DNA of 64,000 nucleotides from Chitinophagales bacterium (GTDB taxonomy: Bacteria; Bacteroidota; Bacteroidia; Chitinophagales; LD1), in the NCBI GenBank assembly GCA_016786765.1, contig JAEUUZ010000001.1:1-64000 (forward strand). Direction: 5' to 3'. Below the pieces are notes generated by a model. It ran no database searches. It saw only the letters and a list, made by a program, of their open reading frames with translations, and had not been told where the DNA came from. The translations under genes were made by a program, and so were the position numbers. This document shows positions 1 to 15,245 of the stretch, piece after piece (within the stretch, counting starts at the first letter, position 1; every line of letters starts with the position of its first letter).

Positions 1-1
1 A

Positions 2-1108
2 TACATAGGCAAGGAGCGAGATGAGGAGAGTGGTTTGTATCAAATGGGAGCGAGATACTATGCGCCTTGGACGTGCAAGTTTTTGAGTGTAGATCCGTTG
101 GCTGTTAAACTGGCACATCAGAGTAGTTATTGTTATGCGGATTGCAATCCGATAATGTTGAAGGATCCGAGTGGGATGCAGACGCAGAGTAATGGAGGAG
201 CAGATAAGAACGATGTACAAAAAACTAATGAACTACATCTTTTAAAGATAGATGGAGAAGCGCTGAAAAAAAGTAAGTCAGCTCAGCCGATGGATGGGCA
301 AGTTGCTCCAGAAAATAATTCTGCGTTAAAAACAAAACAGCAACAAGAAGTTAATACCAATATAAAAATGCAACCGCAAGTTTCAAAAAAAACAGAACTT
401 AAAGCTGCTGCAGCAACTGCTAGTGTAAAACATCTACAAGAAATCAAACAAGGCTTACCTCCAGTAAAAAAGGAGGATAGTTTGTTAGGAATAACTCTAA
501 ATAAAATGGAAACATCTTTAACTACTGTAAAAGATAAATTGATAAATACGGTTGAGAAAGTGGACGATTTTGGCGTTAAACTTGGAGGGTATGGTGGCAA
601 ATTAGTAGAATCAACAATAAAACCGCCAGTTGATAAGTTAGATGATTATATGAAGTCTGCCTCTCAGGTTGGTGCTAATGTTGAGGCGAAAGTAGATTTC
701 AATAAATACTCTGTGGGAGGGAAACTCGGTTTTTACAGTACATCAGAAACAAATGGCGGTTTTGAGGCTTCAGCAAACTACACTATTAAAGCCAATATCA
801 AAAAAACTAAAGAAGAAGGCTGGTCAAGTACACTTACAACTTTCAAATTTAAACCAAGTGTCAAAATCAATTTTTATGTTTCCCGTGGTGAGGCTAATAA
901 AGATAGTGCTCTTTGGGATGTTTCAAATTCAACAATAGTTGAAGGTAAAGCATTTGCTGGACCACTTGAAATTTCTACCGATAGTAAAAAAGTTGATCAG
1001 TTCTCAATCGGATTGCTTAAATCCAAACAAGATTTTGGAGCTGAGTTTGGAGTTAAGAATCAAACTAAATGGTTTGGTTATTCAGGTACATTTCAAATTG
1101 GTCATTGA
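2..1108 (+). CDS. RHS-repeat polymorphic toxin, C-terminal part (5' end outside window)
   Basis: The reading frame is open from base 2, so the gene enters from the left; the TTG at 35 is internal. The first residues read YIGKERDEESGLYQMGARYY, the conserved end of the RHS repeat-associated core, followed by a DPSG motif that ends the core. Downstream lies a variable C-terminal region of about 310 residues: a Lys/Gln-rich linker, then a beta-rich segment (from about residue 215, counted from 35) with alternating hydrophobic and polar residues. In RHS proteins this region is the toxin, released from the RHS shell. I recognise no known toxin fold. The stop codon overlaps the start of the next gene (TGATG), as in toxin/immunity pairs. 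The RHS assignment is firm; the toxin activity is inference. Confidence 0.85.
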   Translation, partial: YIGKERDEESGLYQMGARYYAPWTCKFLSVDPLAVKLAHQSSYCYADCNPIMLKDPSGMQTQSNGGADKNDVQKTNELHLLKIDGEALKKSKSAQPMDGQVAPENNSALKTKQQQEVNTNIKMQPQVSKKTELKAAAATASVKHLQEIKQGLPPVKKEDSLLGITLNKMETSLTTVKDKLINTVEKVDDFGVKLGGYGGKLVESTIKPPVDKLDDYMKSASQVGANVEAKVDFNKYSVGGKLGFYSTSETNGGFEASANYTIKANIKKTKEEGWSSTLTTFKFKPSVKINFYVSRGEANKDSALWDVSNSTIVEGKAFAGPLEISTDSKKVDQFSIGLLKSKQDFGAEFGVKNQTKWFGYSGTFQIGH

Positions 1109-1708: not shown

Positions 1709-2206
1709 AAGTGGAAAAAGGAATAGCTTTTCTCTCTGGCTCAAGAATGCAGGGTTGGCCTTGAGTTGGTGTTCTTGTGTCCAGATAAAATTAATTATTT
1801 TTTAATTATTAGTAATAAATATCTCTTCTAGTCGAAGTTTTCATCCTCTTATCTTCAACTCAAAACATACCAAGTGTTCAGCTAAACATAAACCGGAAAA
1901 TTTAATATATATAAAGAACATCGACTTTTATCTTCATACAATGAAAGAAAAATATTCCATATAGAGTTTCTTCAATAATATATGATTGTCTAGAATGAAA
2001 ATGCAGAATTGTTTTTAGTAGGTGTTCTTTTGTTATTTAAAATAGAATATTTTTGACTCTAACTCTCTAATATTCCTAGTAGTGCTTTTCAAATGATAGA
2101 TAAAGGATTTTATGTAAAGTTTTTTTAAAACAAATAACTTTTTCACTTGGTATACTGACGCAACTTTTTTAAGTTTAGTTATTAATGAAAATCAAACCCT
2201 TGAAAT
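1709..2206. other. AT-rich intergenic stretch, nothing recognised
   Basis: About 500 bases of very AT-rich sequence between the RHS toxin module and the next gene. No credible coding frame, RNA gene or terminator was found on either strand. Stretches of this kind are common between cassettes in RHS-bearing islands. Confidence 0.5.
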
Positions 2207-2602
2207 ATGCTAACAAACACCCTCATCCTCCCCACTGCTGACAAAGCTACATCTCGAAAAATGCTTTTGGATGCCATTCAAGAAAACCCAATTGTGTTGT
2301 TTATTGTACTAGGGACAAGTGAACAAGCAAAAAAGACTGTTGATCGAGCAGATAGGGCTAGTGAAGAGCCGGAACGCCATGTAATCTGGGCTATGAAGCC
2401 GGATCATATTTGGGATATTTTGCAGACGCTCGATAATGAAATAGGATACCCTGATGCAACCAATCAAAATATTGATTGGACAAAGGACATTATGGTTGTT
2501 GTTTCATCTTTAGGTGATACGATAAGGTTTGTTCAATATGATACCGGCAAGCCAATGGATATGCTCGATATTGAGATTGCTTATAATCTTGGCTCACGAT
2601 AA
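2207..2602 (+). CDS. hypothetical cytosolic protein, first gene of an unrecognised locus
   Basis: A 131-residue protein without signal peptide or membrane helix. It has an alternating alpha/beta pattern with hydrophobic strands (PIVLFIVLGT at about 29-38; DIMVVVSSLGDTIRFVQYD at about 94-112) and a central WAMKPDHIW stretch. I do not recognise a family. The next gene begins 11 bases downstream on the same strand, so the two are probably co-transcribed. Together with 2614-7446 it forms a same-strand block inside the island. Confidence 0.6.
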   Translation: MLTNTLILPTADKATSRKMLLDAIQENPIVLFIVLGTSEQAKKTVDRADRASEEPERHVIWAMKPDHIWDILQTLDNEIGYPDATNQNIDWTKDIMVVVSSLGDTIRFVQYDTGKPMDMLDIEIAYNLGSR

Positions 2603-2613
2603 AAAAATGAACT

Positions 2614-4650
2614 ATGAAAATCTACCCACTTCTTTTTTTGTCCTTCATTTCAGTTTTCTCCTTTGCACAATCGGATAGTGCGAGTAAGGCACAATTGCAA
2701 TTGCTAAAACAGCAGTATGAGGATGCTCAACGACAACTGAAGCAAAAGCAAAATGAATTAAAGCGTGTTGAGCTGCAATTGAATCTCGCCCGTAAAGAAA
2801 ATACTACAAGCGAAACTGAGCGTAAAGTTGATCCAACAGCAATAGTCTCCTTCGTGGAACGAACACAACATAACAAAGAGTATTTGAGAAACCCCAATAA
2901 AGCATCAGATAAAGGCTTGGACATAAATAGTGAACTGGTAGTGCGATTGAACAAAGATGAAATTCGCAAAGATATTGCCCTTGAGAAAACGAATCAAACC
3001 GACTTGAAAAACCTCTTTGTTTATTTACAAGCTCTGGAGCGTTACAAAGACCAAATGCCTGCTGCTCTTGAAAAAGTATCAAATTCATATTTAGTCTATA
3101 CGCAAAATCCTACACCTGCAAATACATTACTCTATACGCAAGCTATAAAAGCCAGAAGTGCTCTTTTTCTTGATATGGTTCAAGCTGCACAAAGTATACC
3201 CCAATTTAGAGAAGTGTATAACAGCGAATATGAACGAGCAATTGCTGATGAGAATGTTCTTCTAACCACTCAAGTAAAACATCAGATTGCCCTAACAGCT
3301 ATTGCTGCAGTAAAACCTGTCTTTGAACGTCAAATTGATTCGTTACTTACTAAAGATGGAGTACGTGTTGCTTTAGCGGCATGGATTACAAAGCGAGGCG
3401 AGGCAAATAGTAGCACTATACATATCGATGGATTTGATGATTATGCTCCCGGTACGTTTTATGCTTACGACCGTTTCCAGTTGGCACTTACGGAGGAACA
3501 ACAAGCGGAGTTAAAGCGATTAGATGAAAGCTTTAAAGGCATGCAGCCTGAGGAGGTATTCAAAAAAGTCGGTGAGCAAGTAAAAGGCCAAATTCAGACC
3601 GAACTCGATAATCAAGTCAGAATTTTAGATAGTCTATGGGAACAAACAAAGAATTCATTTAGAGAAAACTATACTCAAAATCTTGATTCACTACATATTA
3701 AATACCCTAAGCTGGTTTACGATATACATCGCTTAGATTCAGTCGTGAATTTACTTCAAGTAACCATCAACCGAGTTGTTAATCAGGTGAATAGCCCCTC
3801 GGTGGCTAACGTTAATCTAGCTAATATTTCATCCCTCCAAGGCGAAATTGTTGGTCATACTCAGGCTTTGAGTCAGGTAATACAGGCATTGAAAGAAGAT
3901 GTTAATGATCCACGTTTAAAAAGCGATGTGAAAAGTATTATTCAATCGGGAGTGGATCAATTAAAATCAACTGCTACTCAATTTGCATCAAGTAGTAATC
4001 CTGTCTTTACTATTATACAACAGTTATTCCCCGATAATGATTTAGCCTTTATTAAGAAACAAGCACTCGAACTTACAGATAAGGTAAAACAACATACTGT
4101 TACAGATTTACCCGAGGAAGGTGTGATAGATTTGCTTTACACCGGCAAACGAAAATTTGGCGATAGACTTACTGTTCGCTTATATTATTTTGGAAATGAC
4201 TCAGCCTTTGGAACGAAAGGAAAAATAAGAAAGCAAGCCACCTTTACGCTGATGAATGCATTACCTTCAGTAAATATGACGGTACAATATCAATTTGCTA
4301 AGCCTTTTGGATTGAAAGGCGATACAGCTCGCTTTGGAGGTAACTGGAAATCGGGACCCGGATATAGCACTCTCTTTAAATTCGGCAGTAGAAATGCAAT
4401 TTACAAAGAGTTTGTAGATGTTGGCTTAGGGGTAAATATCGCAGCTTTTGATTTCAATCGAGATGATATTCCCGAGTTTGCAGTAGCAGGTGTTGTGAGT
4501 ATTTTCAGAGATTATATTCAAGGAGGCATAGGCTATAATGTGAATGCAAAGAGTGCTTATGGATTTTTTGGCGTAAGACTTCCATTGCCTTATGCGCCAA
4601 TATCAATACCGGCATCGAAGACCAATTTTAACGAAGCAATTAATCCATAA
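2614..4650 (+). CDS. secreted coiled-coil protein with predicted C-terminal beta domain
   Basis: 678 residues. An N-terminal signal peptide (MKIYPLLFLSFISVFSFAQ) is followed by a Gln/Lys/Glu-rich coiled coil (about 20-65), a long helical middle (about 70-490), and a C-terminal 150-residue region with strand-like pattern and alternating aromatic residues (LTVRLYYFG; VNMTVQYQFAK; IQGGIGYNVNAK). The last part resembles a small outer-membrane barrel or beta-sandwich and ends in a Pro-rich tail. No known family is recognised. Exported location is supported by the signal peptide; an outer-membrane anchor is inference. It lies 11 bases after the 2207 gene. Confidence 0.65.
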   Translation: MKIYPLLFLSFISVFSFAQSDSASKAQLQLLKQQYEDAQRQLKQKQNELKRVELQLNLARKENTTSETERKVDPTAIVSFVERTQHNKEYLRNPNKASDKGLDINSELVVRLNKDEIRKDIALEKTNQTDLKNLFVYLQALERYKDQMPAALEKVSNSYLVYTQNPTPANTLLYTQAIKARSALFLDMVQAAQSIPQFREVYNSEYERAIADENVLLTTQVKHQIALTAIAAVKPVFERQIDSLLTKDGVRVALAAWITKRGEANSSTIHIDGFDDYAPGTFYAYDRFQLALTEEQQAELKRLDESFKGMQPEEVFKKVGEQVKGQIQTELDNQVRILDSLWEQTKNSFRENYTQNLDSLHIKYPKLVYDIHRLDSVVNLLQVTINRVVNQVNSPSVANVNLANISSLQGEIVGHTQALSQVIQALKEDVNDPRLKSDVKSIIQSGVDQLKSTATQFASSSNPVFTIIQQLFPDNDLAFIKKQALELTDKVKQHTVTDLPEEGVIDLLYTGKRKFGDRLTVRLYYFGNDSAFGTKGKIRKQATFTLMNALPSVNMTVQYQFAKPFGLKGDTARFGGNWKSGPGYSTLFKFGSRNAIYKEFVDVGLGVNIAAFDFNRDDIPEFAVAGVVSIFRDYIQGGIGYNVNAKSAYGFFGVRLPLPYAPISIPASKTNFNEAINP

Positions 4651-4788
4651 ACTTAAGCGTAAAGAAATTAACTAGTAAAAAGAAATGAATTTGACCTGTT
4701 AAACTAAACCCCAAATCTTGCTGGGTGTTTTTTTTGCAAGAAACCCGAAAAGCCGAAAAGGGAAAAAAGAGTAGGCGAAAACTAATCT

Positions 4789-5676
4789 ATGATAACCCTA
4801 TCAATTATGCCTTCGTTAGACACGGGGCAATGGTCGCTTGTATTAAATAGTCTGATTATTATAATTGGCTTGAGCGGTTTCTTCTTCATTTACGTTTTAA
4901 TGCGCAGAAAGACATTAGAACAGACACAACTAGACAAACTTATTGAAATTGGAAAGTGGATGATACTGTCTTTGGCAGTAACATCTATTGTTTCTATTGT
5001 TGCTGATGGATTTAAGGAAAGGACACAAGATCTAGCGGAACTTAATTACTTCGATAAATATTCAACAATCATCACTAAACATGAAGCGGTAGAAGAACAA
5101 TACTTACTCAGCGAATATTTTGCGGCAGTTTCTCCATCAGGATCGATGCGTGATTCGTGGACCCGTTACAAGGATATTTTACAGCCTAAGTATGATAGTA
5201 TGCTTGTTTTAAATCAAAGGTCTAAGCCTTTTGATGCCAAGATTTTAAACGGTGATACACTTACACCAAGAGAACAAAAGGAATATAATAAAATCAATAT
5301 TGAAAAGAAAATGATTAATGATCAGTTGGCCAAGACGACTGGAAATCAAAAGTTGAATATCGAGGTTTATTCAATTGAAAACGACAATAGTACATTGGAT
5401 CAAGAATCAGTGCAGAAGGCAAAGGATGTAACCTTGTTTCTCCAAAAACAGTTTCCGGACTACACCATTAGCAACGCAAGAGTAACGATTGACCAGAACA
5501 AAGAATTAAAAATTCAGCAAAATCAAATTAGATACACAACAAGCGAAACTGATGATGCAACTAAAGTTCGAGATGCAATAAATGGTAGCAATATTCTTAG
5601 CCTCGAAAAAGTCACATTAGTAAACGATGAAAAGAAAGCAAAAAGTGGTCTTGCAATTTATATCAGAAACATGTGA
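4789..5676 (+). CDS. membrane-anchored hypothetical protein with periplasmic-type C-terminus
   Basis: 295 residues. Two N-terminal membrane helices (about residues 16-38 and 52-70) are followed by a soluble region of about 220 residues. The last 90 residues (from about IEVYSIEND, then alternating strands and helices ending GLAIYIRN) have an alpha/beta pattern that vaguely recalls LytR C-terminal-like domains, but this is weak. I do not recognise a family. The gene lies 138 bases after the secreted coiled-coil protein and 65 bases before another membrane protein; all share one strand, suggesting one functional locus. Confidence 0.6.
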   Translation: MITLSIMPSLDTGQWSLVLNSLIIIIGLSGFFFIYVLMRRKTLEQTQLDKLIEIGKWMILSLAVTSIVSIVADGFKERTQDLAELNYFDKYSTIITKHEAVEEQYLLSEYFAAVSPSGSMRDSWTRYKDILQPKYDSMLVLNQRSKPFDAKILNGDTLTPREQKEYNKINIEKKMINDQLAKTTGNQKLNIEVYSIENDNSTLDQESVQKAKDVTLFLQKQFPDYTISNARVTIDQNKELKIQQNQIRYTTSETDDATKVRDAINGSNILSLEKVTLVNDEKKAKSGLAIYIRNM

Positions 5677-5741
5677 TTTTTTGTTTGATGCAATGCCAAT
5701 CACTTTGAAATATATAATTTGTAAACCCTAATAATTCAGAA

Positions 5742-6836
5742 ATGGAAAAGCTAAAACAAGGAAAATATTGGTTCCTATTTCTTATTGCAATACAAACATT
5801 GGTAGCAATTCTTTACATACTATCGCATGTCTTTTTTCATGGAAAGGAAGTAAAGACGTTAAGTACTAATCAATATCAAAATCTGTCATTAGTTGTGGCT
5901 GATTACAACAGCTCAACTGATAGTATAGAAAAAGCAAGTCGCTCAGAACGAGATACACGTATCATTTGCTTTTTAAAAACGTCATTTGAAGAAGATTCTA
6001 TTGTTCCACTCAATAGCATTTTTAATTGCCTTTCGTCTGTAAAGACCAAAGACGTGATGTCTTTTTTTAAAGATCAAGAGTTCAACGTTTCGTCCTATTT
6101 TTGGTTTAAAGGGTATCAGAGTTTCTTGGAAGTATTACTATGGTCTTTGGTTGGAGTATTGCTGAGCCTTATCTATTATGTTAGTTTGTCGAACAAAGCA
6201 AAGGAGAAGGATAACGATAATCCTGATTTGCCTCACACTTTTGAATACAAAGAGATATATGATCATGTTGCCAAGATGGTGTACGCTCCGATTTGCACAC
6301 TGGTTTTGATTTTGAGTTATACTTATATTTCATCAGATAATTCAGTAGCCAATGTCAGTGCTGGTAAAGGAATGCTTGTATTCTCGTTTATTGCTGGTTT
6401 TTATTCCGGCAGAGTAATGAAGTTTTTAGATAAACTGAAAGAGTTATTGTTACCAACCGGAGGGACAGATAAATCAGGAGGTTCATCTGTTACCCCCGCG
6501 AAACCATTGCCACCACAAGCTCCAATAATAACAGACAATACAGCGTTTACTTTGAATACAGGACAACTTGGGGGCGATGCTCCAACTGATTTTAAAAATC
6601 TGACTATTTCGTTGACTAAAGTTTCAAGTGAAGCATCTGAACAAATTCCTCTAGAGTGGAACGATGAACAAAAGCATTATCTCGCTAAGCAAAAGCTGAG
6701 TTCAGGGAAATATAAAGTAATAGCCGAACTAGTTGATGAGAATCAGAGTGTAATAAAAGAATATGGCGCAATCGATATTGAAATTGTAGACACCACCGCA
6801 ACAAAGGAATATGAAATTATTTTAAATAAAATCTAA
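5742..6836 (+). CDS. multi-helix membrane protein with C-terminal beta domain
   Basis: 364 residues. Four membrane helices are visible: about residues 11-32, 129-148, 180-198 and 208-225. Between helices 1 and 2 is a soluble loop of about 95 residues. After helix 4 comes a Gly/Ser/Pro-rich linker (about 237-265) and a C-terminal domain of about 100 residues with beta-sandwich pattern, including a repeated hydrophobic/charged strand layout. No family is recognised. Only 10 bases separate it from the L,D-transpeptidase-like gene, so co-translation is likely. Confidence 0.6.
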   Translation: MEKLKQGKYWFLFLIAIQTLVAILYILSHVFFHGKEVKTLSTNQYQNLSLVVADYNSSTDSIEKASRSERDTRIICFLKTSFEEDSIVPLNSIFNCLSSVKTKDVMSFFKDQEFNVSSYFWFKGYQSFLEVLLWSLVGVLLSLIYYVSLSNKAKEKDNDNPDLPHTFEYKEIYDHVAKMVYAPICTLVLILSYTYISSDNSVANVSAGKGMLVFSFIAGFYSGRVMKFLDKLKELLLPTGGTDKSGGSSVTPAKPLPPQAPIITDNTAFTLNTGQLGGDAPTDFKNLTISLTKVSSEASEQIPLEWNDEQKHYLAKQKLSSGKYKVIAELVDENQSVIKEYGAIDIEIVDTTATKEYEIILNKI

Positions 6837-6846
6837 AAACTAAACC

Positions 6847-7446
6847 ATGGCAAACGTTCCTAACAGCCGTCCAAGAATGTCAACTGAAAGACTTCGCGAG
6901 ATAATCAAAACATTGAATGTTGATTTATCTCAACACCCTTTGTTCCTAGTGGGAATAAGAGGGTATTATTTAAACTCTATGGGAGAAGGAAATAAAAACG
7001 ATAGAGGAATTTATGATGATGCTATTTTTATTGTTTCTCCTAATGCTGCGGTTTCTTTTAATGCGAATACGGATCCGTCAGTTGTTCGAAAAGGAAAGGG
7101 GACAGGTACAGGAAAAGGAATGGCAAAGTTGAAGAATGGACTATGGAAAGCCCATCAGTTCGGGAAACATAAGACCTATGAAGCTTTGATTCAAACTGGA
7201 GGACAAGTAACCGTAATCCGTGATGGAACACCCGATTATGAAGATACAGGCTGGTTTGGTATTAATATTCACCGTGGCGGATACAACACCACATCGAGTG
7301 AAGGTTGCCAAACAATTCATCCATCGCAATGGGATAGTTTTTATGCACTTGTCTCATCAGAGGCAAAGCGATTGTATGGAAATACTCAATTTAGAAAAGT
7401 TATTGTGCCTTATTTGTTGATTGAGAATGATGGGAGTTTGGTATAG
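6847..7446 (+). CDS. L,D-transpeptidase (YkuD)-like enzyme
   Basis: 199 residues, no signal peptide. The key stretch is GINIHRGGYNTTSSEGCQTI (about residues 138-157): an invariant-looking His142, then Ser151-x-Gly-Cys154. This matches the H...S-x-G-C pattern of YkuD L,D-transpeptidases, which use the Cys as nucleophile on peptidoglycan stem peptides, though spacing and the following Gln differ from the usual GCIRM. Similar SxGCQT motifs occur in phage- or effector-type proteins. The lack of an export signal suggests delivery by another route or lysis. It ends the same-strand block beginning at 2207. Peptidoglycan activity is inference from the motif. Confidence 0.55.
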   Translation: MANVPNSRPRMSTERLREIIKTLNVDLSQHPLFLVGIRGYYLNSMGEGNKNDRGIYDDAIFIVSPNAAVSFNANTDPSVVRKGKGTGTGKGMAKLKNGLWKAHQFGKHKTYEALIQTGGQVTVIRDGTPDYEDTGWFGINIHRGGYNTTSSEGCQTIHPSQWDSFYALVSSEAKRLYGNTQFRKVIVPYLLIENDGSLV

Positions 7447-7539
7447 ATTTTATAATCAAGTTATGTAAGTTATGGATGATAAAAGTAAATTGCTTTTCTT
7501 CTTATTATATCTTCCAATTTATATCTAGAATAACTCGTT

Positions 7540-10500
7540 ATGGATAATACTTTTTATACTCACATTAAAATTCTTAAACAAGCAATAGAGCATAATAAAC
7601 TTGTAGTGTTTGCTGGTGCAGGAGTTTCTCGCGATGCAGGAATCCCAACTTGGAATGAGTTGAAGAATGAACTTAAAAAAGATATTAATGTTGATGAAGA
7701 TGAAACAGATGCTCTAAAAATTGCCCAGATATATTTTAATGAGCGTGATGAAAAAGAATACATTGATAAGGTTCGACAGATATTGAAATATAAGCAGGTG
7801 AAATATTTGCCTACACATGAACTTATTTTCAAACTTAATCCTCTTCATGTTATCACTACAAACTTTGATGATCTTTTTGAGCAAGTAATTGAAGAGAAGC
7901 TTTACCCTTTCTCTGCAATTGTTAAGGACAGTGACTTCCCCTTTGCATTAAATACCAACTTTCTTGTAAAGGTACATGGGGATTTAACAGAGGCAAATAT
8001 CGTACTAAAAGAAGAGGATTTTTTAGGTTATGCTCGTAATCATCCACTTTTCGAGAGTTTTATTAAATCAGTGTTTGCATCTAAAGTTGTGCTTTTTGTT
8101 GGATATAGTTTTTCAGACCCCAATCTTCAATCAATAATTCATCATGTAAGAGATATTTTAGGAAAGAAATTTCAATATGCTTATCTTTTCAATTCGGCAT
8201 CTAATATTCATTCCTCACAGAAAGGATATCTTAAAAGCAAAGGTATACAACTTATTTCTTATAGAGAGCATAAAAAAGAAATAGAATCTTTTTTAAACGG
8301 AGAAAATAGTAGTAAAGTAAAATATTATAGACATTACAATCTTTCAACAGCTGGACAGTATACATGTAACTTTCTTAATTTTCTTAGTCAATATAAGGTG
8401 CAAAATGAAGAACTGAAGAATAGAAATTTTATTGATAAACTTTTCGTGTCTCTTGATAGATTTAATGATGTTGTTTGCCTTGATGGATACTTTGTAACTA
8501 GTTTATATCCAATTAAAACAGACAAAACTTATTTTAATGATTCTGTTATTACTACAGATAATATCGAATTGCTCTCTCTCTACAGGGACTATAGTAAAAT
8601 TCAAAATGGGGTAATGGTAATTACCAATATATCAGCGTTAGGAATAGTTGAAAGGGAACGCAAAGAATACGAGATAAAACTTAATACAATTACTAAGCAA
8701 TTAAATTATAGTGGTATTTCATGGCTTTCAGCAAGTAACGCTAAACATCCGGAAAAGTTTATACCTATTTCTCTTAAGAGTCAAAATTGTCAATGTTTAG
8801 GATGTCGATATTTATCTTTCAAGTTAGATGAAGTAGCAGAAGAAGTTAACTCAGAATCACAGTATCGAGATTTAAGGGATAGGCTTCTTTTCGGTTATGT
8901 AGTTTATAAGTTTGGCGATTGGGAAAAAGCACTAAAGGTTTTTTCTGAAATTGCTGCAGAAGCATGGAAGGCGCATAGATATATATTATATTATTTATGT
9001 AAAAAGAACATTAAAACTCTCCATAATCTGGTCAGAGGTGATTACAGGATGACCGAGAAAAAGAGAGAAGAACTTTTAAGTCAAATCAAGGATACGGATC
9101 TTGACATGTTATTAAATCAATTGACAGGGTTATCTGCTGAAGAATACAAATTATTGAGAATTATTCGCGATCGTGATGTACTTTATGATACTCTTGAAGA
9201 TGTCAATGAGGCATATTCCAATATATTTAAGACATATCACCATTTCATAAATGGGGGGTGGTCTAGTCATATTGGAGACTCTGATATAAATAAGCTAATA
9301 AATGCATTAAATAAGCTGTTTAACTTTCATTGGAATAACAATATTGTACTCGATGAGTATAAAGATTTCACAGACATTGCAAAAAAGGGGTTTGAAGGAA
9401 TTATAATCAGTAATGCTACTAGTGATTCATACAATGCTCGACTAGATCAATTCAACGCCTCTCAGCTTCAACTTATGGTCTTATATGGTGGCAATGAAAT
9501 AGGTAAGGCACTTGAAGATTTCGAAGTCAATAGGCTTCACCTAGATGAAGAAAACAGGAGAGTGTTTGTCGGTTGGGCTAAAAACTTTTTTCAATCCTTT
9601 TCAAATAAGAAGTCAACACATGGGAATTATCTTAACGAAAATATAAAGTCACAATTACGTTTTGAGAATTTTAGACGAAACTGTTCAAGATATTTTTCCA
9701 ACTTCGTTGTTTTACTTTCATATTTAGAACTTGATAACGAACTAACAGAAGGACTAATTGATAGTTTGCTTGTATTTCTTGAGGTGCAAGATTTTTTAAC
9801 TTGGCCAGACATTGAAAACTTATGTTTACTCTTAGAAAAGCAGCCCCAGACTTTTAATGAAGCACAACTATCAAAGCTTATAGCAATTAGTAAGCTTCGT
9901 AAGTATAATTTTAGAGTTGAGCGTGATTTTTGGTGGGCAGTTTACATTGTAAAAAGGGATCATTTGGAAAACTTTTTGATTTCTGATAAGAAACTTATAG
10001 ATGAAATAATATCTATTTCCAATAGTAAGGATTGGGCTTATCAAAATATTTTAGTTGCATTCTATTTTTTGACAGAAAGTGCTCTACGTAAAAAGGTGAA
10101 AGAACGCATTCTCAAACTTTTAAATGATAATTTTCAAATATCATATTATGAATATTTAGTAAAAGTAAAAATTATAGATAAAGGATTACTCAAAGAAATA
10201 TATATAGACAACCTAAATTTGCAATGTGATATTGAGATAAGAAATAACTTGCCATATTGGGTTAATACACATTCTGGTTGGGTAAGAGACTCAATAATGT
10301 TTCTTGTTTATTTTAAGTTTAAGTTCACTGGGAAACTGCTTAAGAAAATAAATGAGGCACCTGATTTTGTGAAATTTGCATTATTGCCCAATAAATATGA
10401 TTATAGTAACTTTAAAGTTGAATGGCTTTATCTATACAAGAATCGTCCAGATGTGCTACTTAACCTTGCAAAATCGAGGAAATTCAAAGCTGAATTGGCA

Positions 10501-10560
10501 AAACGTAAAAGCGAAATAGCTGACGAAAAACTCAAAGCACTTGTTTTTACATACTTTTAG
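7540..10560 (+). CDS. SIR2-domain protein, DSR2-like defence-associated sirtuin candidate
   Basis: 1006 residues. The N-terminal 250 residues form a SIR2 NAD-binding domain: GAGVS at 26-30, TTNFDD at 106-111 (Asn108 and Asp110), VHGD at 145-148 (His146, the usual catalytic His) and FVGYSFSDPN at 186-195. The remaining 750 residues are mostly helical with no domain I can name, apart from a CxCxxC cluster near residue 420. This length and layout match defence-associated sirtuins such as B. subtilis DSR2 (about 1005 residues), which deplete NAD+ on sensing phage tail proteins and cause abortive infection. It is a single-gene unit next to the integrase in a genomic island. SIR2 family membership is firm; the phage-defence role is inference. 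Confidence 0.8.
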   Translation: MDNTFYTHIKILKQAIEHNKLVVFAGAGVSRDAGIPTWNELKNELKKDINVDEDETDALKIAQIYFNERDEKEYIDKVRQILKYKQVKYLPTHELIFKLNPLHVITTNFDDLFEQVIEEKLYPFSAIVKDSDFPFALNTNFLVKVHGDLTEANIVLKEEDFLGYARNHPLFESFIKSVFASKVVLFVGYSFSDPNLQSIIHHVRDILGKKFQYAYLFNSASNIHSSQKGYLKSKGIQLISYREHKKEIESFLNGENSSKVKYYRHYNLSTAGQYTCNFLNFLSQYKVQNEELKNRNFIDKLFVSLDRFNDVVCLDGYFVTSLYPIKTDKTYFNDSVITTDNIELLSLYRDYSKIQNGVMVITNISALGIVERERKEYEIKLNTITKQLNYSGISWLSASNAKHPEKFIPISLKSQNCQCLGCRYLSFKLDEVAEEVNSESQYRDLRDRLLFGYVVYKFGDWEKALKVFSEIAAEAWKAHRYILYYLCKKNIKTLHNLVRGDYRMTEKKREELLSQIKDTDLDMLLNQLTGLSAEEYKLLRIIRDRDVLYDTLEDVNEAYSNIFKTYHHFINGGWSSHIGDSDINKLINALNKLFNFHWNNNIVLDEYKDFTDIAKKGFEGIIISNATSDSYNARLDQFNASQLQLMVLYGGNEIGKALEDFEVNRLHLDEENRRVFVGWAKNFFQSFSNKKSTHGNYLNENIKSQLRFENFRRNCSRYFSNFVVLLSYLELDNELTEGLIDSLLVFLEVQDFLTWPDIENLCLLLEKQPQTFNEAQLSKLIAISKLRKYNFRVERDFWWAVYIVKRDHLENFLISDKKLIDEIISISNSKDWAYQNILVAFYFLTESALRKKVKERILKLLNDNFQISYYEYLVKVKIIDKGLLKEIYIDNLNLQCDIEIRNNLPYWVNTHSGWVRDSIMFLVYFKFKFTGKLLKKINEAPDFVKFALLPNKYDYSNFKVEWLYLYKNRPDVLLNLAKSRKFKAELAKRKSEIADEKLKALVFTYF

Positions 10561-10723: not shown

Positions 10724-11953
10724 TTATAAACTAGATTCTTCTCGTATGATTTTCTCGTGAAAATCATCAATAATATCACTTTGGAGTGAGTCTAAATAAA
10801 TTTCAGTTGTTTTTGTATCTGAGTGGCCTAACATGTCAGAAATTGCTGCAATTGGTATACCTAAATTCTTGGCTCTAGTAGCGAAACTATGACGAGATAC
10901 ATAGCTAGTAAGATTTTCTTCAATACCACATAACTCGGCAATTTTCTTCAACTTTTTGTTGAATCGCTTTCTTGCCCATTCAACATCTTTGTATTGCTCT
11001 TCAAGTTTAATTCGTTTTATTATAGGAAATAGATAATCATCTTTTTTCTTTCCGTAAAGATAAAGGGTAAGTATGTTCTGTATTTCAGGAGTAATTTTAA
11101 TGTCATAGGGCTTATCAGTCTTTTGGCGTTGATAAAATATTCGCCCATCTATAATATTTGAAAGTTTTAATTGAGCAAGATCGGCAAAGGGCATTCCTCG
11201 CATAAAGAAGCTTATGAGGAAGTAATTCCTTGAATGAAATAATGGATCACTTTCACTAAGTTCAAGGTTAATAATATTCTTTATTGAGTCGATACTAATT
11301 GCTCTCTTACGCGTCTTAGTTATTTTGATTTGATAGCTTTCAAATGGGTATAGTTCTTTTTCAATAATTCCGGCTTTGATGGCTCGATTAAAAATTGCTC
11401 TGTAAGATCTCATGTAAGTAGCTAATCCATTATGAGCATTCCCTTTAGCGAAATGATTCTTTTCGAATTGTTTTAGAAAGTTGTAATTCAACTCTTGAAA
11501 TGTGAGGTCTTTACCTTTACAATAGGTTCGTAAAACTCCAAGCGATGATTTATAGGAACGGGCATTCCCAATTTTGTTTGCTTCTTTTAGTTCTTGAATC
11601 AGACGTTCTCCAAATTTGAAAAAAGATAACTTGTCCGCTTTTCCTATTATAATTTCCTTAAGTTCAAGAACTGAAAGGTTAGAAAGCTTCTTTTCTTCCT
11701 CTAATTTAGTAATAACATCAAGTGCTTCAGTTTTTCTTTTTTGTAACTGATTGTTTAATCTAGTCACAGATTCTGTCCCCGTATAAGATGACTTAATCAC
11801 CCGTTTATTTGAATCCCAGTCTTTTTCTAGGAGCGAAATTCCGGTATTGATTGGGCTACTTTTGCCCCAATGGACAATTCTCATGAGAAGAGGGTAAGTG
11901 CCATCTTTTTTCTTAATTCGGGTGTCGAGTGTGAGTACAATATTTGTTTTCAT
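10724..11953 (-). CDS. tyrosine recombinase / integrase (Bacteroidota type)
   Basis: 409 residues. An N-terminal Arm-type DNA-binding region (TLDTRIKKKDGTYPL start, typical of Bacteroidota integrases) is followed by a SAM-like core-binding domain (about 105-200) and the catalytic domain. Catalytic residues seen: Arg in FFMRGMPFADL (about 252), Lys in the KTDKPYDIKIT beta-hairpin, SYVSRHSFAT box (Arg about 356, with Tyr where many integrases have His, common in this group), LGHSDTKTTEIY with the nucleophile Tyr near 385. It catalyses site-specific integration and excision. The start codon lies about 160 bases from the tRNA fragment at 12112-12153, so it is very likely the enzyme that inserted the island there. 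Confidence 0.93.
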   Translation of the reverse strand: MKTNIVLTLDTRIKKKDGTYPLLMRIVHWGKSSPINTGISLLEKDWDSNKRVIKSSYTGTESVTRLNNQLQKRKTEALDVITKLEEEKKLSNLSVLELKEIIIGKADKLSFFKFGERLIQELKEANKIGNARSYKSSLGVLRTYCKGKDLTFQELNYNFLKQFEKNHFAKGNAHNGLATYMRSYRAIFNRAIKAGIIEKELYPFESYQIKITKTRKRAISIDSIKNIINLELSESDPLFHSRNYFLISFFMRGMPFADLAQLKLSNIIDGRIFYQRQKTDKPYDIKITPEIQNILTLYLYGKKKDDYLFPIIKRIKLEEQYKDVEWARKRFNKKLKKIAELCGIEENLTSYVSRHSFATRAKNLGIPIAAISDMLGHSDTKTTEIYLDSLQSDIIDDFHEKIIREESSL

Positions 11954-11983
11954 AGCAATGCAAAAATGGATATTTAATTTTTC

Positions 11984-12005
11984 TTTCGCAAGTATTTCGC
12001 AAGTA
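11984..12005. repeat. two tandem 11-bp repeats upstream of the integrase
   Basis: TTTCGCAAGTA occurs twice head-to-tail (11984-11994 and 11995-12005), between the integrase start and the att site. Direct repeats in this position often are arm-type integrase or excisionase binding sites, or an operator for the int promoter. Repeat is seen directly; function is inference. Confidence 0.6.
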
Positions 12006-12111
12006 AAATTGAGATTTATATGGGTTAATGTGAAATCATAAAATAAATAAATAGCTCTAAATGAGTTTTTTATGATTTATCTTGCTTTGTATTTTTTAAT
12101 ATATCCACTCT

Positions 12112-12153
12112 CTTACAAGCAGAGGGTCACAGGTTCGAACCCTGTAGCTCCCA
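12112..12153 (+). other. tRNA-Val (TAC) 3' fragment, probable attachment site of the island
   Basis: The sequence runs from the anticodon loop (CTTACAA, anticodon TAC) through GCAGA of the anticodon stem, the variable loop, a perfect T arm (ACAGG TTCGAAC CCTGT) and the 3' acceptor strand AGCTCCC plus discriminator A. The 5' half is missing: the preceding bases (ATATCCACTC) do not form the D arm or complete the anticodon stem. This is what remains at one end after integration inside a tRNA gene; crossover in the anticodon loop is typical for tyrosine integrases. The intact tRNA should be at the other end of the island. Confidence 0.85.
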
Positions 12154-12160
12154 CAACTTA

Positions 12161-12188
12161 AACGCCTTACTTATGTAGGGCGTTTTTT
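12161..12188 (+). terminator. rho-independent terminator of the tRNA-Val unit
   Basis: A 10-bp stem (AACGCCTTAC / GTAGGGCGTT, one G-T pair), 4-base loop, then a run of six T. It lies 8 bases after the tRNA fragment, so it is the original tRNA terminator and marks chromosomal sequence to the right of the island. Confidence 0.8.
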
Positions 12189-12233
12189 ATTTCATGACTT
12201 ATTAAATGTTGCTTGCGTAGGCTATACCGATAG

Positions 12234-13754
12234 TTACTTATTGCGTAGTGGTTTCAACTTTTTCGCATTCCAACGTCTGTATATGTTCTCGTAAAGTTTT
12301 ATTTCTTCACTCAAAAGTGTTTGTTTCTTATTACTCCTTGCTTGTATTTGTAATGCCCAGTCTAATTCTACATTCGAAACGAAGTTGCTATCAATTGGAT
12401 TAACTTCATTTGGGAATTCACTTAATTTCGTTGCTATATACTTATATAAGTCAACCTCTTCTGAAATGGGCTGGTAACTGCTATCATTTGCTTTTTTCTC
12501 CAGCATAAGCGCCCAATTAATTTCATCTTGCATTTTTTTTGTCAATATAGAAAACGCTACACTATCATTTTTTGGTGAAGGTACAGCAGGTGGATTAAGC
12601 GATGTATTTGACATCTTTTCACCATTTTCAAGTTGCGTACTCAAATGTTTGACAGCATCTTGAGCGTTAGGAGAGGGACTATGTGGTTTTGACCAATAAG
12701 AAAAGTGTATAGGAACTTTGGGAGCCACTTTGTTTGGTGCTATGGAATTTGGTTGTGTATTGTTATTGAATTGCTGCGCACTCAACCTATTGGCAAAATT
12801 TTGATATTGGGTAGTCTCTTGTGCATTGGGGGTGTAGCCATTTTTTACTTTTTCTTCCAATTGTAAGGCCCATTTTATTTCTTGTTGCGAAGCGGTTGCA
12901 GCTACTGTATTTGCATCTTCTAAATTTGGGTTAGTATTTGCATTGAATTGTTGTCCGCTCAACCTTTTGGCCATATCTTGATATGCTTCAATTTCTTGCC
13001 CATTGGGTTGGTAGCCATTTTTTACTTTTTCCTCCAATAGTATGGCCCAATCTATTTCTTGTTGCGTAAGGGGTAAGGCTACTTTATCTAATGCAATGGA
13101 ATTTGGCTTAGTACTTTCTTTGGACTGTTGCGCGAGTAATCTTTTGAAAATATCTTCGTACTGTGCATTTTCTTGTGCATTTGGTGTATAGCCTTGACCT
13201 ACCATCATTTCCAATTGTTTAGACCATTCCAATTCTTTGTCCGATGGATTATTGCTTTGCGTTTTTACAGTTGTATCGGTATTTTTTTGTTGAAGATGTG
13301 GAGCGCTCTGTTCTTTGCTTTTGTGCTGATTCCATCTTTCGAAAATCTGCGCATATTTCTCAATTTCTTCATCTGTCGGAATTTTGCCCTGTTGAAAACT
13401 ATCCAAAAATTGGAGTGCCCACATCATCTCCTCATCTGATTCTGCTTTACTTTTATCGATAAGTACATTGTTTTTCTCTTGTTGTTGTTGTTGCTGATAT
13501 TGTTTATAAATAGCGGTATAACGTTCAATTTCTTCAACTGTTGTTCTATACCCCTCTTGAACATTTTGTTGTAATCCTAAAGCCCAATCTAAGTCGCTTT
13601 GTGAAGGAGCGGACGGAAGTAACTGCTGATTTGTATGCATTCTGTCGTTTGTTTTTTCGTTCGCACCCATTATCAGTATTTGCGAATTGGCCGAATGAAC
13701 TAAGCAAAACAGAAACAACCATATAAGTATAATACGCGATAGATATTTTTTCAT
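12234..13754 (-). CDS. secreted protein with seven ~40-residue helical repeats
   Basis: About 506 residues from the ATG at 13754, chosen because it begins a clean signal peptide (MKKYLSRIILIWLFLFCLVHSANSQ); an upstream ATG at 13784 would prefix 10 polar residues. The mature protein has seven copies of a unit of about 40 residues with the consensus (S/Q)xxExxWAxxLExxVxxGYxPxxxExxxYxxxxxRLxxQQ, separated by Asn/Pro/Gln-rich linkers. The repeat resembles a two-helix hairpin. I do not recognise a family, and no enzymatic motif is visible. An envelope scaffold or binding role is possible. It stands alone to the right of the tRNA fragment. Confidence 0.75.
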   Translation of the reverse strand: MKKYLSRIILIWLFLFCLVHSANSQILIMGANEKTNDRMHTNQQLLPSAPSQSDLDWALGLQQNVQEGYRTTVEEIERYTAIYKQYQQQQQQEKNNVLIDKSKAESDEEMMWALQFLDSFQQGKIPTDEEIEKYAQIFERWNQHKSKEQSAPHLQQKNTDTTVKTQSNNPSDKELEWSKQLEMMVGQGYTPNAQENAQYEDIFKRLLAQQSKESTKPNSIALDKVALPLTQQEIDWAILLEEKVKNGYQPNGQEIEAYQDMAKRLSGQQFNANTNPNLEDANTVAATASQQEIKWALQLEEKVKNGYTPNAQETTQYQNFANRLSAQQFNNNTQPNSIAPNKVAPKVPIHFSYWSKPHSPSPNAQDAVKHLSTQLENGEKMSNTSLNPPAVPSPKNDSVAFSILTKKMQDEINWALMLEKKANDSSYQPISEEVDLYKYIATKLSEFPNEVNPIDSNFVSNVELDWALQIQARSNKKQTLLSEEIKLYENIYRRWNAKKLKPLRNK

Positions 13755-13934
13755 TGCTGTAACCGGTTTTTCTATACTACACATTTCCGTTCTAATAGTT
13801 TAACATCTTCCTTTATTTTCAATAACTTATATGTGATTTACCTTTCATAGGACAAATGTTGATGTATATATGATTTTTTGGGAGAGGCTGTCGGAATCAG
13901 ATATATTCATCATTAAAACAAAATCAAAACAATT

Positions 13935-15245
13935 ATGATAAGACAGACCTTGGCATTGTTTGTAATACTGCTTTGTATGTCCACTGCAAATGGACAAAAA
14001 AATCCACCGGATCATTTTTTGGTGAGCTCTACTTTAATCAAGCAACATACAAAGGCAACCATTAGTGCTATTTGGAAAAAGAACCATATCCCTAAAGCCA
14101 TATTACCGGTAAGAAATGATGTGGATGTTTATGAGATTATTTACAAAGCTCCATGGATCGACAGTACAACGTGGATTAATTGCTCCGGAATTGTATATGT
14201 GCCGAAGTTAAAGAAAGGAAAGAAGGCTTCTACATTCATGTTTGGTCATGGTACAGAGATAAGAAAAGGAAGAAGTATTTCTGACGATGATTCCCAACAA
14301 GGGATTTGTTTAGGTTTTGCTGCCGATGGTTATTTTGCATTGTATCCAGATTATTACGGTATTGGAAAAGGGGATGGAAATCACTTATATCAGCATGCCT
14401 GGAGCGAGGGAATGGCTTTTATCTACATGCGCAAAGCGGTGGAAGAAATGAAAGCACAAGTTGGTGTTGAAACCAATGATCAATTATTTTTAACAGGCTA
14501 TTCGCAAGGCGGACATGCTTCGTTTGCAGCCCATAAATATTTTGAAGAAGTGAAAGATCCGCGATTTAAAGTAACAGCATCTTCACCAATGTCGGGCGCA
14601 TATGATATGACCGGAGAGCAAGCGAAATATATGTTTCAGAAATACCCTCGTCCGTTTTACTTGCCCTACTTGTTAATCTCTTACCAGGAGGCTTATAAAG
14701 TAATTAATACCGACAATATCTATTCGATTTTTAAATCGCCTTTCGATACTTTATTGCCTGGATTTTTTGGTGAAGTACGCGCTAAATCGTATGGCGATTT
14801 AGATAGAATTATGCCTCCAATTCCAAAAGATATAGTGAAAGATGAGTTGGTAGAGCAGTTTGTAAATAACCCGCAATTCAATTTTCTTTTAAGATTAAGA
14901 GAAAACAATTTGACCAATTGGAAGCCGGAAGCCCCGGTGCAATTGTGTTTCTGCAATGGCGACCGTGAAGTGAATTACAAAAACTCGGAAGTGGTATACA
15001 ATAACATGACCGCTATGGGCAAAAAAGACATTAAGCTAAATAATTTAAGTCCGAAGCTAGACCATAATACCTGTGCGGCTTTTGCAGTATTAGCAACTAA
15101 ATATTTCTTCGATCGTTATCGAAAACACGGCAAAAATCCGAAGATGAAAGACCTTCCTCCTTTCAAGAAGTTTCTTGTAGGAATCATCAAAAAGAAAATT
15201 GAAAAAGATTACGAGAAAACCGGAAGCGATCATGCGTATCGGTAA
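13935..15245 (+). CDS. secreted alpha/beta-hydrolase, lipase/esterase-like
   Basis: 436 residues with a signal peptide (MIRQTLALFVILLCMSTANGQ). The nucleophile elbow GYSQGGHA is at about residue 188, in the GxSxG form; FGHGTEIRKG upstream may form the oxyanion region, and LDHNTCA near residue 378 supplies a candidate catalytic His. The layout resembles secretory lipases and prolyl-oligopeptidase-like esterases that act on extracellular lipids or esters. The substrate is not evident. It is monocistronic, with a strong bidirectional terminator 20 bases downstream, shared with the convergent metH gene. Confidence 0.8.
   Translation: MIRQTLALFVILLCMSTANGQKNPPDHFLVSSTLIKQHTKATISAIWKKNHIPKAILPVRNDVDVYEIIYKAPWIDSTTWINCSGIVYVPKLKKGKKASTFMFGHGTEIRKGRSISDDDSQQGICLGFAADGYFALYPDYYGIGKGDGNHLYQHAWSEGMAFIYMRKAVEEMKAQVGVETNDQLFLTGYSQGGHASFAAHKYFEEVKDPRFKVTASSPMSGAYDMTGEQAKYMFQKYPRPFYLPYLLISYQEAYKVINTDNIYSIFKSPFDTLLPGFFGEVRAKSYGDLDRIMPPIPKDIVKDELVEQFVNNPQFNFLLRLRENNLTNWKPEAPVQLCFCNGDREVNYKNSEVVYNNMTAMGKKDIKLNNLSPKLDHNTCAAFAVLATKYFFDRYRKHGKNPKMKDLPPFKKFLVGIIKKKIEKDYEKTGSDHAYR

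Follow-up and report, generated by a model that had tools for sequence, protein, structure and literature searches.

A SIR2 protein of DSR2 architecture from a Chitinophagales bacterium and the predicted sensor module that it shares with nuclease-type relatives

Gene content of the locus

The window analysed here comprises the first 64,000 nucleotides of contig JAEUUZ010000001.1 from a Chitinophagales bacterium (assembly GCA_016786765.1). An earlier note on this DNA had described a 1006-residue protein of the size and layout of the sirtuin DSR2, encoded by a single gene beside an integrase. The reading frame is indeed uninterrupted (Table 1), and the gene stands on its own, as the last position of the preceding ORF is 7446, and the gene that follows is convergent, 163 bases away. 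The identity of that neighbour as a real integrase was confirmed by matches in Pfam, NCBIfam and phrog.

Table 1. Position of the SIR2 protein gene, its parts and the adjacent integrase in the window
Feature	Coordinates	Strand	Remarks
Gene of the DSR2-like SIR2 protein	7540..10560	+	complete ORF, ATG start, 1006 aa, stop-free
SIR2 (NADase-type) effector domain, residues 2-240	7543..8259	+	Pfam, PADLOC and PDB matches
Asn108 codon	7861..7863	+	aligned with DSR2 catalytic N133
His146 codon	7975..7977	+	aligned with DSR2 catalytic H171
C-terminal sensor module (predicted), residues 295-1006	8422..10557	+	equivalent to DSR2 middle domain and CTD (DSR2 304-1004)
CQCLGC (CxCxxC), residues 417-422	8788..8805	+	hallmark of the Bacteroidota branch
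YDYSNFKVEW, residues 953-962	10396..10425	+	C-terminal motif; family pattern [FY]DYxxFxxxW
Tyrosine recombinase (integrase)	10724..11953	-	Phage_int_SAM_5 4.8e-20, Phage_integrase 5.7e-16, phrog_1 5e-30; NCBIfam match

The GC content of the gene is approximately 0.31, compared with 0.37-0.42 on its right side. The C-terminal module was found in 7 of the 298 genomes of the same order, distributed over seven genera; the other genomes listed for the same family lack it. Of 26 family genomes, a single one has the upstream gene of 678 residues (2614-4650), whereas relatives of the hydrolase on the right of the integrase occur in 25. The patchy occurrence, the low GC content, the integrase and the differing distribution of the flanking genes in combination indicate that the gene and its neighbours probably constitute an accessory, mobile segment. 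No convincing direct repeat that might serve as an attachment site was found around the integrase, nor was there synteny with relatives by which to define an empty site, and the ends of the segment were not found.

Five accessory genes, the 678-residue one included, lie directly upstream (2207-7446), one of them with a match to phrog_3000 (3.4e-21). Further to the left, in the region 35-1524, the ORF at 35-1108 opens as the end of an RHS-like core (YQMGARYYAPWTCKFLSVDPLA) and continues into a variable tail; it overlaps a 151-residue ORF with a sub-threshold DUF3592 match, an arrangement resembling the end of an RHS polymorphic toxin with its neighbour gene. On the other side, a 516-residue ORF at 12234-13784 on the reverse strand contains three consecutive 177-nt repeats of 64-73% identity (59-residue units) and belongs to no family of known function.

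The SIR2 domain

The N-terminal domain is matched by the Pfam model SIR2_2 with an E-value of 2.1e-26, well past the cut-off, while SIR2 (PF02146) remains below its cut-off. Its best match in the PDB is DSR2 (8wkt, E 8.5e-31, residues 2-240), followed by ThsA (7uxt, 1e-20). In PADLOC the best models for the N-terminus are those of ThsA (5e-37), covering residues 7-225. The NAD-dependent deacylase models of NCBIfam give weak N-terminal matches (E 5.5e-7) that fall far under the curated cut-offs.

The profile search against DSR1 and DSR2 that the earlier note had proposed was carried out. DSR1 resembles the protein in combining a SIR2 domain with a large C-terminal region, and its model (Dsr1, NF041818) reaches 49.9 bits over residues 12-246, i.e. 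the SIR2 part alone, against a cut-off of 1400 bits and short of a full-length match. The Dsr2 model of PADLOC-DB 2.0.0 fires neither on the protein nor on L072, a DSR2-type protein of Virgibacillus alimentarius, on which the ThsA models score best as well. Consequently, DSR2-type proteins may be called Thoeris or missed altogether, and ThsA was rejected as the family assignment.

The residues Asn108 and His146, previously proposed as the SIR2 site, are located in the stretches HVITTN108FDDL and KVH146GD, and align with N133 and H171 of DSR2, mutation of which lowers the NADase activity of that protein (PMC10981675). Judged from these domain and residue matches, the SIR2 domain is a predicted NADase. 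The two active-site stretches, residues 84-118 and 145-168, have pLDDT values below 50 in the AlphaFold model, probably because the SIR2 rows in the alignment were few.

Sequence match of the C-terminal module to DSR2

Pfam is silent over the C-terminal two thirds of the protein, the NCBIfam and PADLOC matches are almost all N-terminal, and the C-terminal part alone is without a match in PADLOC; as a family, the module is absent from all three libraries. Pattern scans with the protein itself returned zero relatives in genome contigs as well as viral contigs, owing to its divergence. With the C-terminal part as sole query, four diverged relatives were found, which together with the query gave a five-row profile, later extended to nine rows. 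The nine-row profile is free of SIR2 domain, and the five-row profile contains a SIR2 remnant in one row, in columns gapped in the others.

When 177,635 PDB sequences were screened up to E 10, DSR2 was the sole match of either profile, with E-values of 6.1e-8 (five rows) and 1.2e-10 (nine rows). Both matches run in order and reach the C-terminus of both partners, the latter over 563 aligned positions. The composition-bias term of HMMER is high (38 bits), yet no other helical-repeat proteins are among the PDB matches. The earlier note had considered that the C-terminal region might prove to come from a non-defence family; what it matches is DSR2. The divergence that had been suspected in this region is likewise apparent, as the identity to L072 is 30% in the SIR2 domain and 14% over the sensor, so that the trigger may differ entirely from that of DSR2. 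Near the C-terminus, D954, Y955, F958 and W962 are invariant in the family alignment (A3), and the equivalent stretch of DSR2 reads FDYKKFIPSW.

Predicted structure

The AlphaFold model of the protein, computed from a 38-row alignment, has a pLDDT of 78.9. The long C-terminal region is helical as had been anticipated, and between residues ~290 and ~890 its pLDDT is mostly 85-97. Full-length DSR2 chains occupy the top 44 rows of a Foldseek search, with E-values from 6e-22 to 9e-17. Comparison with DSR2 by VIA gave Z 28.2 and an rmsd of 8.8 over 827 aligned residues spanning 1..1006, against Z ≤11.5 for non-DSR2 folds; the whole-chain rmsd between the model and DSR2 structures is 6-10 Å. Sensor-only DSR2 chains match residues 289-1006 with Z 23.5-25.2 (8ygo_B, Z 25.1), and the sensor module superimposes on 8k98_C with Z 25.2 and rmsd 5.6 over 632 residues.

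The alignment behind this model included the DSR2-type row L072, and a cleaner test was therefore made with L033, a relative from Algoriphagus aestuarii in which an MmeI_N domain precedes the module, modelled from 34 further rows without Bacillota or SIR2 domains. The pLDDT of this model is 86.5. Between its residues 222-958 and DSR2 302-1004 the match has Z 25.9 and rmsd 5.6 over 607 aligned residues. All Foldseek rows under E 0.001 belong to DSR2, and the fold next in rank reaches Z 9.8. The DSR2 entries among the matches were released in 2024 or later. AlphaFold2 was trained before that release, and recall of the DSR2 structure is consequently unlikely.

The protein thus resembles DSR2 of Bacillus subtilis (PDB 8k98, 8wkt, 8wy8 and others) in having an N-terminal SIR2 domain with the same Asn and His, a middle domain and a helical solenoid C-terminal domain (CTD), and the two are of nearly equal length (1006 and 1005 residues) with a fold match from end to end. 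The likeness, at first a guess from size and layout, is now supported by the SIR2 match, the C-terminal profile and the predicted fold.

A family with exchanged effector domains

The family was collected with a manually designed DNA motif that represents the [FY]DYxxFxxxW stretch near the C-terminus, and the collection samples motif-bearing members only. The motif identified 62 loci in the contigs of 84,980 genomes, 51 of which, mostly from Bacteroidota, were confirmed by profile as carrying the module, and 0 loci in viral contigs. No relatives of the C-terminal part were found among annotated phages, and a fold search of viral predicted structures gave no match under E 0.001. On plasmids, relatives of the C-terminal part were limited to Hymenobacter tibetensis, with Priestia megaterium in addition when a DSR2-type query was used.

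Clustering of 42 family proteins by their N-terminal domain revealed that a nuclease replaces SIR2 in most relatives, e.g. in L033, in L006 from the Hymenobacter plasmid, and in L057, L086 and L084. The effector is PIN_12 in twelve proteins (Pfam E 8e-17 to 3e-10 in the six tested), MmeI_N in nine (3.5e-7 and 6.7e-6), DUF4365 in eight (2e-6 and 1.8e-7) and SIR2 in six. SMEK occurs in two (2.7e-30 and 2.6e-23) and in a truncated third, L063; two more are Mrr-like, with Mrr_cat at 0.0016 and hence below the cut-off, and the N-terminus of L025 is named by no library. The C-terminal module is accordingly a family of its own, joined to several effectors. The nuclease-type Bacteroidota relatives have the same module, CxCxxC cluster and [FY]DYxxFxxxW motif as the 1006-residue protein, and differ from it in the effector.

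A rapidly built maximum-likelihood tree of this module, to be read with caution on account of long branches, above all those of the Bacillota rows, requires at least nine effector changes, compared with 20.2 for shuffled labels. The 1006-residue protein groups with L050, also of SIR2 type (97*), inside a set (98*) that holds eight MmeI_N proteins and, besides the protein itself, two Bacteroidota SIR2 members; this set lies apart from the DSR2-type proteins of Virgibacillus and Paenibacillus. A single clade of all SIR2 rows was rejected (p-AU 0.006), as was one of all DUF4365 rows (p-AU 0.003). The protein is a SIR2 member of the Bacteroidota sensor family with DSR2 as a distant relative, its place in the tree not being that of a strict DSR2 orthologue. 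The sensor has the look of an interchangeable part.

The CxCxxC cluster near residue 420 had been pointed out before as unusual. It is present in one copy, and the description as unusual holds in comparison with DSR2 only, since all three Cys are kept in 32 of the 38 aligned rows. They are missing from all three Bacillota rows, and the entire set is lost in L050, the Mrr-like protein L082 and L030. In the AlphaFold model the cluster comes after the strands of the middle domain and before the first solenoid helices. On the simplest supposition it would bind metal, probably lending rigidity to the link between these two parts. A conserved His in the alignment column of residue 296 was considered as the fourth metal ligand, but as it occurs in 20 of 36 rows and is missing from the 1006-residue protein, the assignment was not retained, and no fixed fourth ligand emerged. 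Both the cluster and the [FY]DYxxFxxxW motif are present in this protein, which in this respect has the features of the Bacteroidota sensor family.

Several relatives adjoin defence genes: Lamassu LmuA and LmuB (L025), a type II methyltransferase and a UvrD/GajB-like helicase (L013), and HEC-05 (L026).

Proposed function and alternative explanations

It is highly probable that the 1006-residue protein acts on its own as an abortive-infection system built like DSR2. The most likely function is abortive infection via NAD+ loss after binding of a phage protein by the C-terminal arm. From the working mode of DSR2 (PMC10981675, PMC11087589, PMC10973363) we infer, by analogy, the oligomer, the phage trigger, the depletion of NAD+ and the role in defence. 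In the resting state the SIR2 domain would be kept inactive within the oligomer. Upon infection, the arm, consisting of the middle domain and the helical solenoid, would bind a phage protein, whereupon arm and middle domain would shift and the movement would be relayed to the SIR2 domain, resulting in its release. Asn108 and His146 would then support the hydrolysis of NAD+, and the cell would come to a halt before phage release. In the relatives the arm carries a PIN, MmeI_N, DUF4365, SMEK or Mrr-like nuclease domain in place of SIR2, which suggests that the sensing step is preserved and the killing step exchanged.

The protein differs from DSR2 in having the CxCxxC cluster and in a sensor branch held in common with nuclease effectors. 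Moreover, the interface residues Y71 and D188, jointly required for tetramerisation of DSR2, align with Asn50 and Glu159, and loop 143-148 is not conserved. The assembly may therefore differ from that of DSR2.

With regard to the trigger, the chances are about even that the DSR2-like arm senses something other than a tail tube, such as another protein of the virion, an inhibitor of host defence made by the phage, or components of a plasmid. The occurrence of the module on many effectors and beside varied defence genes is typical of sensors diversified in an arms race, and the CxCxxC cluster is an extra missing from DSR2; however, the fold that binds the tube in DSR2 is retained. That the protein is a true DSR2 orthologue, sensing the siphophage tail tube protein exactly like its B. 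subtilis counterpart, appears doubtful. Architecture and fold are the same, and the middle domain and CTD, where the tube site of DSR2 is located (PMC10981675, PMC11087589), are both present. Conversely, the sensor groups with MmeI_N members away from the Bacillota DSR2-types, a single SIR2 clade is rejected and the sensor identity is low, and DSR2 itself is narrow in the tubes that it reads, sensing the SPR tube and not that of SPbeta (PMC10973363).

A housekeeping, non-defence sirtuin-like deacylase with a scaffold arm is very improbable: the weak N-terminal matches to deacylase models would fit it, but the best matches are to the NADase-type SIR2 of DSR2 and ThsA, the occurrence is patchy, and the relatives have nucleases at the position of SIR2 and sit among defence genes. 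Membership of Thoeris (as ThsA) or of the short-pAgo systems (as SIR2-APAZ) is a negligible prospect in spite of the leading ThsA models in PADLOC, as these span the N-terminal domain only and lead on L072 too, no ThsB-like (TIR) or Argonaute gene is found among the neighbouring ORFs scanned, and the C-terminal part is predicted to fold as DSR2, a match by which this reading is already refuted unless the match itself proves wrong.

The relation to both systems is nevertheless instructive. ThsA has a similar SIR2 NADase domain, coupled to a SLOG-like domain that answers a cyclic ADP-ribose signal (PMC10981675), whereas the present protein has a predicted protein-binding solenoid instead. The partners of short prokaryotic Argonautes are SIR2-, DUF4365-, SMEK- or REase-APAZ proteins (PMC10810196), i.e. 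an overlapping repertoire of effectors is exchanged on one common module. In those systems the common module is APAZ with an RNA-guided Argonaute, in contrast to the DSR2-type protein sensor of the family described here.

Returning to the DSR2-type reading, we are inclined to extend it to the family. On balance the evidence favours the view that a large superfamily of sensors for phage proteins, as yet without a name, includes the DSR2 sensor as one of its branches. These sensors would be plugged onto at least six effectors (SIR2, PIN, MmeI_N, DUF4365, SMEK and Mrr) to form single-gene systems of abortive infection throughout Bacteroidota, and in most of these systems the conserved Cys cluster would belong to the joint at which sensing or gating takes place. 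In that case the two halves would be freely recombinable, and the phage protein that is read may differ from branch to branch. DSR2 has been studied as a one-off sirtuin defence, and the 1006-residue protein shows that the sensor half is an independent module; undetected single-gene defence systems are thus predicted in Bacteroidota. Domain exchange could separate sensing from killing, and the many diverged sensors could be used to map what is read in the phage. Nuclease effectors on the DSR2 sensor were not found in the literature searched (mostly without subscription journals and bioRxiv), and the novelty of such fusions is relative to that literature only.

Individual family members

Some members of the family deserve separate mention. 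L006 (NZ_CP094674.1, Hymenobacter tibetensis plasmid, 11344-14241) is annotated as a type IIL restriction-modification enzyme MmeI, yet it consists solely of the MmeI N-terminal nuclease domain and the sensor module, and is likely misnamed. In the SIR2-type member L003/L067 (Chitinophagales MAG-100) the SIR2 part extends across two frames, a frameshift attributable either to decay of the gene or to the assembly. L025 (4656-10423) directly follows the Lamassu genes LmuA (2.5e-137) and LmuB (5.8e-228) and could belong to that operon. The SMEK-type member L015 (5550-12517) overlaps by a few bases a 1417-residue gene of STAND/NLR-like appearance without a PADLOC match. In Flavobacterium tructae (L011 = L082; G530:C35) an Mrr-like and an MmeI_N-type member are encoded side by side, at 2117-4750 and 4795-7692.
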